From: a virus
DNA length: 39,608 nucleotides
IMG/VR virus record: IMGVR_UViG_3300031643_000005
Span: 1-39,608 of that record
Reading direction: 5' to 3' (one strand)
Below the pieces are notes generated by a model, which worked only from the letters and a program-made list of their open reading frames with translations, was not told the DNA's origin and made no database searches. Positions 21,190 through 30,565 of the stretch are shown in pieces (positions within the stretch are counted from its first letter, which is position 1; every line of letters starts with the position of its first letter). Both the position numbers and the translations under genes were made by a program.

Positions 21190-22932
21190 CTATGCCTTCC
21201 ATCTGTGGACAATGAAGCATCTGCAGTTTTTGACAATCACCCCAGATGCCATGTATATCCCTCCCACACCAGCTTGGAGGTCATAGACATGTCCCGAATA
21301 GTCGAAATGCCGAACATCTACGATTTGCATCGGCGCTATATGGCCGGCGAGACTGCCAGTCAGCTGGCCCTGGAGTATGGCTGTCATGCCAATACGATCC
21401 TCGGGCGCTTCCGTCGCGCGGGATTGCCACGGCTGCCGACGGGAGGCCAACAGCGCGACCGGATCGCTATTCCTGGGCTCGACTTGTTGTTGGCCCGCTA
21501 TTTGGCCGGAGAGTCTGAGAATGCCCTCGCGCATGAGGCCGGGGCCAATCGCTCGACTTTCCGCCGTCGCTTGTTGAAGGCGGATATTACTCCTCGCGGC
21601 CGCAGCCTGGCCGGACACCTCAAATGGGACCGGATGTCTGCTCTTCAGCGAGAGGCCCAGGTTAGAGCCGCCCATGCCGCCAATGTCGGGCGCATCCCGT
21701 CGTGGGAGGAACGGCGCCATCAGGCCCAAACCCGCCAGAGCCGGCTGTTGACCATTAGCCCTGTAGAGCGCACGCTGGCCACCGGGCTGGCTGCCCACGG
21801 GCTTATCCCCATCGCACAATATGCTCTTGGGATATACAATATTGACATCGCCCTCGATGCAAGCGCCCTCGCCGTGGAGGTCTTCGGTGGCAAGTGGCAT
21901 GCGTTTGGTCGCCATCGCAGCCGATTCTTTGAGCGTACGATATATATCCTCAACAGCGGCTGGCACCTCTTGGTCGTTTGGGTCGACGGGAAACATTATC
22001 CCTTGGGCGCTGCCGCCGTAGAATATATAATCGCCCTCGCGAAGGACATCAGCCGCAACCCAGCCACGCCCCGTCAATATCGGGTGATTCTTGGTAACGG
22101 TGAGCCTGCTCCCGTTCTCAAGACGCATCTCAACCGCCCCGCCGACATAGAACGATTGCACTGCCGCTTCCGCGCCCCCGGGCACTATGACTATATTCCC
22201 GGGTAGAATGCATCCTGGATGCCGAGGCACCCAGTCCGCGCCTGGCGAGAGTTCAGCCCACCTGTTTTGCGGCTGCCCATCCAGGGGGGCACAGAGAGGA
22301 CACACCTTTTCGTCTTTCACTGTCTGCCAGTAGGCCGTGAGTTCTAATCCCGCCTCCTGGGCCCGCGCTGCCATCATGCGCTCGCCCTCACCATATGCTC
22401 GGGTAACCTCGGTCACCGCGATACTCTCGGCGCGTTGCGGGCCGAACGTCGGCGTTAGCTCGCGTCGGAGGTCGCCAATCGTCTGCCCCGGCGTGTCTAT
22501 GAACTGTGGCACCTTCTGGCGCAAAACCTTCTGACTATATTCGTTCAAGCCCGTCACTAGATCATAGCTATAGGTCGTCGCCCATTCTGCTGCATCGAGA
22601 GCCACTAGCGCCCAGTCCACGCCCACGGGCAGGGCTGCATAGGTTGTCGCCGCCGCTACCAAGGCCATACGCTCCAACTCGGGCCGGAGTATCCGCACGA
22701 CCTCTTGCAATTCCGCCGACCAGAAGATGGCATCACTGAGCCCCGCTATGTCCGGGGGCCATCCCAGGAGTGCTAGAACCCGACGCAGTTGTTGGCCCAA
22801 CGACAGCCGCAGAGTCCGTTCCAGTTTCGTCTCGTCTTGATCCTTCGCGTCCGCGTTCGGGTCTTTTTCCCCGCTCGCCGTCTCTCGGACGGCTTTGGCG
22901 AAAAAAGGGCGACTGGAAAGCCGCGCGCACAT
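21190..22932 (-). CDS. MuF-type head morphogenesis protein interrupted by an intein
   Basis: The 580-residue precursor has extein residues 1-240 and 570-580. The N-extein contains the helical region (ALVALDAAEWATTYSYDLV, IGDLRRELTPTFGPQRAESIAVTEVTRAYGEGE) and the DEKVCPLCAPLDGQ half of the SPP1 gp7/MuF zinc motif. The other half, HPG|CRC, is split by the intein (residues 241-569). After splicing, the protein would be about 251 residues, within the family range. MuF proteins bind the portal and sit inside the head. The start is uncertain: the ATG at 22932 has only a weak AGAGG and overlaps the portal frame by 200 bases, and portal and MuF may be joined by a +1 shift near 22900. The stop is at 21190-21192. 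Confidence 0.9.
   Translation of the reverse strand: MCARLSSRPFFAKAVRETASGEKDPNADAKDQDETKLERTLRLSLGQQLRRVLALLGWPPDIAGLSDAIFWSAELQEVVRILRPELERMALVAAATTYAALPVGVDWALVALDAAEWATTYSYDLVTGLNEYSQKVLRQKVPQFIDTPGQTIGDLRRELTPTFGPQRAESIAVTEVTRAYGEGERMMAARAQEAGLELTAYWQTVKDEKVCPLCAPLDGQPQNRWAELSPGADWVPRHPGCILPGNIVIVPGGAEAAVQSFYVGGAVEMRLENGSRLTVTKNHPILTGRGWVAADVLREGDYIFYGGSAQGIMFPVDPNDQEVPAAVEDIYRTLKESAAMATKRMPLATEDLHGEGACIEGDVNIVYPKSILCDGDKPVGSQPGGQRALYRANGQQPALAGLGLMAPFLPRRDAPDIGGMGGSNLGLSLKSRHPVPFEVSGQAAAARSNIRLQQATAESRAIGPGLMREGILRLSGQIAGQQQVEPRNSDPVALLASRRQPWQSRATEAPEDRIGMTAILQGQLTGSLAGHIAPMQIVDVRHFDYSGHVYDLQAGVGGIYMASGVIVKNCRCFIVHRWKA
21230..21259 (+). promoter_or_regulatory. Sigma70-type promoter of the antisense endonuclease gene
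   Basis: On the plus strand TTGACA (21230-21235) is followed after 18 bases by TATATC (21254-21259), preceded by TG one base before it. GGAGG at 21276-21280 and the ATG at 21289 follow at proper distances. Everything lies inside the intein. The -35 is antisense to codons I-V-K just before the terminal Asn, and the -10 is antisense to G-I-Y. Confidence 0.65.
21289..22206 (+). CDS. Putative Vsr/DUF559-like homing endonuclease, encoded antisense within the intein
   Basis: This is the only convincing plus-strand gene in the window, 305 residues. The ATG at 21289 follows GGAGG by eight bases; an earlier in-frame ATG at 21175 lies outside the intein and is rejected. Residues 8-45 and 62-105 are two related HTH modules (YMAGETASQLALEYGCHANT and YLAGESENALAHEAGANRST). 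Residues 157-255 are a PD-(D/E)XK-type core resembling Vsr/DUF559 nucleases: Glu160 (SPVERTL), Asp186 (YNIDIAL), Glu197 (AVEVFGG), His204 (KWHAFGRH), and GWHLLVVWVDGKHYPL. The C-terminal 50 residues lie opposite intein blocks A and B. It stops with TAG antisense to the third intein codon. It presumably cuts intein-free MuF alleles to drive homing. The nuclease family is inferred from motifs, not from a search. Confidence 0.85.
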   Translation: MSRIVEMPNIYDLHRRYMAGETASQLALEYGCHANTILGRFRRAGLPRLPTGGQQRDRIAIPGLDLLLARYLAGESENALAHEAGANRSTFRRRLLKADITPRGRSLAGHLKWDRMSALQREAQVRAAHAANVGRIPSWEERRHQAQTRQSRLLTISPVERTLATGLAAHGLIPIAQYALGIYNIDIALDASALAVEVFGGKWHAFGRHRSRFFERTIYILNSGWHLLVVWVDGKHYPLGAAAVEYIIALAKDISRNPATPRQYRVILGNGEPAPVLKTHLNRPADIERLHCRFRAPGHYDYIPG

Positions 22933-29975: not shown

Positions 29976-30565
29976 CGTTGCCATCGCTGTGCCTATGCTG
30001 GGCTGCGCGTCGCCCCGCAGCGCCTCGCCCTTGCTGTGCTGCGCGCTGCTGCGCCGTGCCCCGCCTTTGCTGTGCCGCGCGCTGCAGCGCCCCGCCACGC
30101 CTTTGCTGTGCCACGCATTGCCGCGCTGTGCCCTTGCTGTGCTGCGCGCTGCTCCGCCGTGCCCCGCCTTTGCTTTGCTCGGCACCGCGGCGCAACGCCG
30201 CGCTTGGCCTTTGCTGCGCTTGGCTCTGCGTTGCCATTGCTGTGCCCTTGCTGTGCTGTGCCCAGCCGCGCCCAGCCCCGCCCCGCCTTTGCTATGCCGC
30301 GCCCAGCCCCGCCACGCGCTGCCTTTGCTTTGCCCTGCCTCGCTTTGCTCCGCACCGCGCAGCCGCGCCCCGCCTTTGCTGTGCCTTTGCTTTGCTCGGC
30401 ACCGCGGCGCATCGCCGCGCTGCGCCCCGCCTTTGCTGTGCGACGCATCGCCGTGCGTCGCCCTTGCTGTGCTGCGCGCTGCTCCGCGCTGCAGCGCGTC
30501 GCCCGGCCACGCCTTTGCTGTGCAGCGCGTCGCCGCGGCGACGCGCTGCATTGCATCGCTATCGC
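29976..30565. repeat. Pentanucleotide-phased array, (NNNGC)n on the plus strand
   Basis: On the plus strand GC recurs every five bases for about 590 bases (for example TGTGC TGCGC GCTGC TGCGC CGTGC CCCGC). About every 2-10 units one extra C precedes a unit of type TTTGC, CTTGC or ATTGC. The other three positions vary widely, so this is not a simple microsatellite. All six frames are largely open, because TA is rare, and give five-residue-periodic A/Q/R/K or A/C/P/L peptides. No frame is a convincing gene. This stretch accounts for the gap between the genes at 29920 and 30559. Confidence 0.9.

Follow-up and report, generated by a model that had tools for sequence, protein, structure and literature searches.

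The virus record IMGVR_UViG_3300031643_000005 of IMG/VR, a stretch of 39,608 bases that was analysed at its full length and is called the window here, carries a phage head morphogenesis gene interrupted by an intein, and opposite the intein, on the other strand, a gene for a putative nuclease. Comparison with homologous loci indicates that this is very probably a mobile intein whose homing endonuclease is a separate gene in the mirror frame of the opposite strand, with a start codon and a Shine-Dalgarno (SD) sequence formed by the strand opposite intein block F, and often with a promoter of its own. Translation of the nuclease would start from the SD sequence and start codon complementary to the block F residues His-Val-Tyr-Asp/Asn-Leu-Gln, and in many members transcription would start from a sigma-70-type promoter complementary to block G and the linker between blocks F and G. 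The intein would splice out of the head protein, the nuclease would presumably cleave head genes that have no intein, and the break would be repaired with the intein copy as template; an antisense promoter of its own would uncouple production of the nuclease from the late head operon.

Homologues were collected from several sources. The antisense protein was found by protein search in 115 phage records, and in 23 of the 40 matches listed the feature annotated at that place is a head, minor head or minor capsid protein, the remainder being mostly hypothetical proteins; 13 phage matches, drawn from 115 and 129 matching records, were opened. Scans of viral contigs gave 15, 45, and 80 of 211 confirmed stretches, and a genome scan added one member, in a cyanobacterial metagenome-assembled genome (MAG). 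After removal of copies, the 156 loci came to 117 distinct ones, 115 of which have a scored intein C-terminus opposite the nuclease. The other two, L064 and L124, keep the N-terminal blocks; L124 meets a contig end, and L064 has a single in-frame sense stop in the linker with nuclease and intein ends intact, which may be an error or a freshly broken host gene. The nuclease tree and codon map cover 113 of the 115 loci, and the structure models were built with 66 and 40 members.

The original prediction had pointed to a GGAGG antisense to Asp-Leu-Gln of block F and an ATG antisense to His548. Both are read directly in the window, eight bases apart, and both are supported by the family, in which block F takes the form G-H-V-Y-N/D-L-Q/E. 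Its codons, CAT GTN TAY RAY CTC CAR, have the complement YTG GAG RTY RTA NAC ATG, i.e. an SD sequence eight bases before a start. Of the 115 loci, 93 have ATG or GTG at the site of the block F His, and 80 have an SD core upstream of that site. When counts are compared with those expected from each locus's own codon usage and composition, this His is encoded by CAT in 84 of 94 cases (38.8 expected, z 10), and the block F Leu by CTC in 82 of 105 (24.6 expected, z 14). Furthermore, the SD at the Leu is coupled to the start at the His (71 of 93 loci, against 7 of the 22 without the start; p 1.9e-4). A His placed two residues earlier supplies ATG or GTG in 7 of the 22 loci that lack the start and in none of the other 93 (p 3.9e-6). 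The tests assume independent loci, although the loci are partly related. Among 40 block F/G matches in control cyanobacterial inteins, one of which (L158) is the MAG family member itself, His is found at the site in none, CTC in one of 32 Leu codons (2.5 expected) and the penultimate His in all 40. The evidence is thus very strong that the predicted antisense SD and start are formed by block F and are under selection, and an antisense nuclease gene beginning at these signals is strongly supported, as well as sequence comparison permits.

The nuclease gene is read in the codon-register mirror frame of the intein. Its stop, TAG, stands opposite Leu243 (CTA), so that the gene ends at 22206, wholly inside the intein, and takes up 918 of the 987 intein bases (93%); the stop falls within the intein in 107 of 113 homologues, and the gene occupies a median of 91% of the intein DNA. 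The window protein matches PF18741 (MTES_1575) weakly (E 5.5e-5, 23.6 bits, below the cut-off of 38.2), and 38 of 66 family nucleases match it at E 0.001 or better. Searches of NCBIfam gave no match up to E 1, and of PHROGs none at E 0.01. The AlphaFold2 model, built with 66 sequences, has a mean pLDDT (predicted local distance difference test score) of 88.4 and consists of helix-turn-helix (HTH)-like helices in two groups, more helices, and then a mixed domain. By VIA-align, this model resembles Vsr (1cw0, Z 11.9 over 116 residues), 3hrl (Z 10.5) and I-Bth0305I (3r3p, Z 10.1), the alignments spanning about residues 155-256 or more, and the top two Foldseek matches are I-Bth0305I (3r3p) and then Vsr (1vsr), with probability 1.00 and E 0.012-0.013. 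Profile matches were obtained to 3hrl (E 4.3e-8) and 3r3p (E 0.0014), and across the 66 aligned sequences M1, G74, A146, E160, D186 and E197 never vary. The plus-strand product is therefore confidently modelled as a tandem HTH protein with a Vsr/I-Bth0305I-like nuclease domain. It would share the catalytic domain fold of I-Bth0305I, a homing endonuclease of the EDxHD type, and of Vsr, and differs from both in the model's two N-terminal HTH units and in the position of its gene, antisense within an intein.

Codon usage and substitutions bear the marks of two overlapping genes. The mirror frame is open across the whole nuclease match in 116 of the 117 distinct homologues, at GC contents of 33-70%, and the other two frames contain stops. 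Sense codons whose complement is a stop are nearly missing from the overlap: of its 2656 Leu and 2708 Ser codons none is TTA, one is CTA and one is TCA, and outside it these codons make up 7.6, 9.3 and 14.5%. In 27 non-overlapping pairs of homologues, nuclease codons that face the intein linker change most at the wobble base, at 0.50 per codon compared with 0.35 for position 1; in those that face the folded N-terminal part of the intein the two rates are even (0.315 and 0.335), and position 2 is held at 0.15. Among the sense residues, constraint at the level of codons peaks over the stretch with blocks A and B and at His353-Gly354-Asp355, the latter facing the region of nuclease Glu197. Taken together, these codon and substitution patterns show that both strands code across the overlap. 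At 21868-21876, which encodes sense residues 353-355, His-Gly-Asp is conserved at codon level (His in 97 of 113 loci, 25.7 expected) beside the complement of the invariant Glu197, a doubly constrained place in the folded part.

The interrupted open reading frame (ORF) matches PF04233 over residues 149-241 (E 2e-8, above the cut-off) and the head protein family phrog_15127 (E 1.2e-22), and the intein is inserted at the HPG|CRC motif of the host protein. Class 1 features are present in the window, namely blocks A and B, a first Cys (Cys241), the terminal Asn569 and Cys570 as the +1 residue; the penultimate His, which is usual in class 1 inteins and not universal, is absent, and Lys568 stands there. 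PF14890 (Intein_splicing) matches the window intein at E 2.5e-8 with 34.3 bits, slightly under the cut-off of 35.8, and 39 of the 40 family sequences compared with it reach E 0.001 or better. Both ends of the intein are predicted with high pLDDT, mostly above 85 in the N-terminal part. Among the 115 family loci, terminal Asn and +1 Cys are kept in all, as are the N-terminal blocks, although L029 and L114 have no Cys at the expected first position; in L029 (Rhodococcus phage REQ3), Ala replaces it (HPNAVLEG) and the nuclease frame is short, possibly a decaying copy. The intein would thus be expected to leave the head protein by protein splicing.

The distribution of the element is consistent with mobility. 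The Gordonia head gene that contains the intein matches 152 phage records, with one place covering at least 80% of it in 7; most of the other records listed match in two pieces that together cover about 71% at 96-98% identity, a pattern expected when the gene lacks the intein or carries another insertion. For the Salmonella phage member, one place covers at least 80% in 58 of 349 records. Relatives of the window thus show the site both occupied and empty in host genes that are nearly identical (about 97% alike in Gordonia); for the window itself, an identical contig is the only one found.

The possibility of an antisense promoter was assessed by scoring sigma-70 similarity upstream of the start against synonymous recodings that use extein codon usage, the score weights being approximate frequencies. 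Across the family the score exceeds the recodings by a mean z of 1.78 (standard error 0.15, n=115), or 1.54 (standard error 0.14) when averaged in 68 clusters at 50% nuclease identity. Five controls scored close to zero in the same test: 0.45 for this stretch read on its sense strand, -0.27 and -0.13 for two host-gene stretches (n=114 and 113), -0.02 for the middle of the nuclease and 0.11 near the N-terminal block. Scores of at least 14 are reached in sixteen loci (0.56 expected), and of at least 17 in six (0.01 expected), each with a perfect TTGACA-N17-TATAAT, five of the six sitting in one group of loci with a penultimate Ser. L026, the member in E. coli phage vB-Eco-KMB36, carries TTGACT-N16-TATAAT. 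The codon bias coincides exactly with the -35 and -10 codons. A promoter internal to the intein is thus supported for the family. For the window, TTGACA-N18-TATATC had been described at 21230-21259 inside the intein, antisense to I-V-K and G-I-Y, and these coordinates and codons were confirmed: the -35 matches the consensus in 6 of 6 positions, the 18-base spacer occupies 21236-21253, and the -10 matches in 4 of 6. This is the likely candidate for the window's promoter, to which Lys568 would contribute part of the -35, and the presence of a working intein-internal promoter here is plausible. Across the homologues, sequence comparison shows selection on the synonymous codons, and even on residues, of the splicing motif for the predicted antisense start, SD and, in many members, promoter.

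The promoters follow two layouts, which differ in the penultimate intein residue. This residue is His in 60 of the 115 loci, Ser in 41, Arg in 6, Lys in 5, Gln in 2 and Ala in 1. Over the splice junction, a -35 of 5/6 or better occurs in 20 of the 46 Ser/Lys loci and in 2 of the 60 His loci, and an exact TTGACA in 9 of the 46 against none of the 60, His codons hardly permitting it there. An exact TATAAT in the F-G linker is present in 13 Ser/Lys and 5 His loci, and a -10 of 5/6 or better in that linker fails to separate the classes (21/60 His against 22/46 Ser/Lys, p 0.23). On the other hand, a -10 of this quality complementing two aliphatic block G residues is found in 37 of the 60 His loci against 7 of the 46 Ser/Lys loci, and 21 of the 37 carry an extended TGN. 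Codon bias follows the classes: Leu TTA and Ser TCA are favoured with Ser/Lys, and Ile ATT-ATA together with Thr ACA or Ala GCA with His. At the junction, each of the five Lys loci carries TTGAC or TTTAC, and the Ser loci use the same place, the strongest completing TTGACA with codons of the type AGY-TCA-TTG. The entire promoter lies inside the intein in the Lys/Ser layout; in the His layout the -10 is inside, and the -35 would lie in the host gene. The nearest relatives of the window in the tree are L034 and L003 (His, TATAAT in block G) and L035 (Lys, TTTACG, TATAAT). It had also been foreseen that a penultimate His would turn the window's TTGACA into TGGACA, and the His homologue L091 has TGGACA at that place.

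The reading that best fits the two layouts is that a splicing residue pays for a promoter. The block F His, absent from the ordinary inteins examined, would be kept because its complement is ATG; the block G His would have been traded for Lys or Ser for the sake of the -35; His lineages would use a block G -10, often extended; and the antisense promoter would allow the nuclease to be timed separately from the late head operon. We regard this set of proposals as moderately probable.

Several observations weigh against the interpretation developed above. No ATG or GTG is found at the His site in 22 of the 115 loci and no SD core there in 35, the Foldseek search of the nuclease model gave no match at E <=0.001, and common descent confounds the relation between penultimate residue and type of promoter. 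The nuclease tree offers four well-supported independent contrasts, too few for us to claim that relation. These few contrasts leave considerable room, though somewhat less than even, for the explanation that the penultimate Lys or Ser reflects the tuning of splicing in phage inteins, the -35 being its consequence and not its cause. Mycobacteriophage class 1 inteins are described as often having Gly, Lys or Ser in place of the penultimate His, which is explained there as splicing tuning, and a change of Gly to His slowed the splicing of one of them (PMC5050341). The -35-like TTGAC or TTTAC in five of five Lys loci, the TTGACA-completing codons of the strongest Ser loci and the exact TTGACA seen in Ser/Lys loci and in no His locus, whose codons hardly permit it there, speak against this explanation. 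Hence the proposal that Lys568 is the price of the promoter agrees with every Lys locus, and its claim to cause falls short in that the loci are not independent of descent.

For the promoter itself, the window's score of 10.5 is equalled or bettered by 19.5% of synonymous recodings (p 0.195), with a poor -10, and a standard promoter scan finds none at the site (0 found against 1.1 expected in shuffles) because its rule requires the final T of the -10. It had been stated that homologues with the antisense gene and no promoter-like sequence would speak against the promoter; a subset of this kind does exist, 42 of the 115 homologues having no -10 of 5/6 at either usual site, and the scores of L018, L019 and L027, from three Gordonia phages related to one another, are close to their null. 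These values are what one would expect if the antisense gene, its start and its SD were real and the window were transcribed by read-through from elsewhere, the promoter-like sequence being a by-product of intein codons. We consider such read-through possible but rather unlikely, in view of the family-wide excess with its clean controls, the six perfect promoters and the bias seen in precisely those codons that form the -35 and the -10. The excess over chance rests on the homologues and not on the window alone, so a promoter inside the intein is supported for the family and does not stand out from the window's own sequence.

It is improbable that the intein has ceased to splice and is tolerated as an insertion in the head protein, like the ShiLan domain discussed below: the missing penultimate His in the window would agree with this, but the first Cys, block B, terminal Asn and +1 Cys are kept, the N-terminal part is predicted with confidence, and the sense residues of blocks A and B are under codon constraint. 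An open mirror frame needs just the avoidance of Leu TTA/CTA and Ser TCA, yet the idea that the antisense frame is an artefact of intein codon usage and no gene is scarcely credible and was rejected, given the Pfam nuclease matches, the confident Vsr-like model with invariant E160/D186/E197, the wobble excess on the nuclease strand opposite the linker, the selection on SD and start, and the stops that interrupt the mirror frame of control inteins (median 7 per 100 codons). A group I intron was likewise rejected, there being no Rfam match at gathering scores in the window, and an insertion of the ShiLan type does not fit, the nuclease being on the opposite strand and an intein domain being present. 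The preferred reading remains that of a mobile intein with an antisense homing endonuclease, the features of which are collected in Table 1.

Table 1. Features of the interrupted head gene, its intein and the antisense gene in the window (residue numbers of the minus-strand ORF were counted arithmetically from 22932)
Feature	Position	Strand	Basis
MuF-like head morphogenesis gene (host gene), intein-interrupted, 580-residue ORF	21190..22932	-	PF04233 and phrog_15127
Intein Cys241-Asn569, 329 residues	21226..22212	-	PF14890; blocks A, B, F, G
Penultimate intein residue Lys568 (AAA)	21229..21231	-	codon read from sequence
Candidate -35 TTGACA (6/6), antisense of Lys568-Val567-Ile566	21230..21235	+	sequence and family evidence
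Candidate -10 TATATC (4/6, without final T), antisense of Tyr560-Ile559-Gly558	21254..21259	+	sequence; weak alone
Block F core His548-Val549-Tyr550-Asp551-Leu552-Gln553, read both ways	21274..21291	-	family motif and codon map
Shine-Dalgarno GGAGG, antisense of Asp551-Leu552-Gln553 (block F)	21276..21280	+	sequence; Leu codon bias
Start ATG, antisense of block F His548 (CAT)	21289..21291	+	sequence; family codon bias
Antisense nuclease gene, 305 residues, predicted	21289..22206	+	PF18741; AlphaFold2; Vsr/I-Bth0305I fold
Intein linker facing nuclease residues 29-178, disorder predicted for most of it (pLDDT <50)	21373..21822	-	structure prediction and wobble-position excess
Zone coding on both strands: N-terminal part of the HINT fold (-), C-terminus and Vsr-like catalytic core (+)	21829..22212	both	pLDDT; balanced changes at nuclease positions 1/3; sense codon constraint
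Codons of invariant Asp186 (21844-21846) and Glu197 (21877-21879); invariant Glu160 at 21766-21768	21844..21879	+	66-sequence alignment

Class 1 inteins of the PI-SceI type contain an in-frame homing endonuclease. Like these, the present element has blocks A, B, F and G and is a mobile insertion in a conserved host motif; unlike them, its nuclease is a separate gene on the opposite strand, and the linker in the intein frame is mostly predicted to be disordered. The catalytic positions of inteins and the EDxHD enzymes are treated in PMC4031507 and PMC3943268. An out-of-frame HNH nuclease gene has been described in phage methylase insertions (ShiLan) without a splicing domain or a detectable ribosome-binding site (PMC11855218). 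Both elements are mobile insertions in phages in which the host frame has no stops and a nuclease is hidden in another frame; in ShiLan it is an HNH nuclease in the third frame of the host gene, whereas here a Vsr-like nuclease lies on the opposite strand of an intein, with its ribosome-binding site within the splicing motif. Antisense homing endonuclease genes are also known in group I introns of nuclear ribosomal DNA, where the endonuclease gene lies opposite a self-splicing element and a promoter of its own has been proposed, as here (PMC9548176). Those cases are eukaryotic RNA introns with the gene in a peripheral segment, whereas here the element is a protein intein whose motif codons are themselves the antisense signals. 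A literature search by title and beginning of abstract, with bioRxiv and most subscription journals outside its coverage, found no paper describing an intein with an antisense nuclease. A 2025 bioRxiv preprint by Gosselin et al. (doi 10.1101/2025.01.02.630785), judging by its title, concerns actinobacteriophage inteins with 'non-canonical architecture'; it may already describe antisense nucleases, and a survey of inteins in PhagesDB could cover Gordonia members found here.

A few further observations were made on the family and the window. In L011 and L070 the host protein continues as CCRP at the junction and is very long downstream, unlike the MuF members, which suggests a different host gene. 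L030 (virus Rctr197k) carries a member of the intein family in a gene annotated as head morphogenesis; the window nuclease gives no match to it at E 0.001, and other family members match. Its flanks, PCVAC|AKRL, resemble what we take to be a deaminase zinc motif. In the Salmonella phage records H112, H113 and H124 the head gene is annotated as an NAD+-asparagine ADP-ribosyltransferase. Elsewhere in the window, five copies of a 129-base tandem repeat (56-698, 94% matches) lie inside a long minus-strand ORF at the left end and encode a 43-residue repeat protein, and imperfect G+C-rich tandem repeats with periods of 36, 67 and 103 at 29991-30478 have long open frames on both strands, with odd Ala/Cys/Arg-rich translations. 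A tRNA search of the window found none, and the three terminator-like sites between 20500 and 23500 on both strands, against 2.2 expected, include none that stands out as an intrinsic terminator.

The DNA of a splicing motif would thus double as the signals of an antisense gene, and a selfish element would therefore pack two genes into one stretch: a protein-splicing motif would also serve as ribosome-binding site, start codon and, often, promoter. The nuclease genes of this intein family go unannotated in the 13 phage records opened, in none of which a nuclease is annotated opposite the intein and one of which has a short hypothetical protein there. The members in cultured phages of Escherichia, Salmonella, Pseudomonas, Vibrio and Gordonia open the system to experiment, and the two promoter layouts offer a testable reason for the loss of the penultimate His in phage inteins. 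More broadly, the family would provide more than 100 natural cases in which two folded proteins are encoded by the opposite strands of one stretch of DNA.

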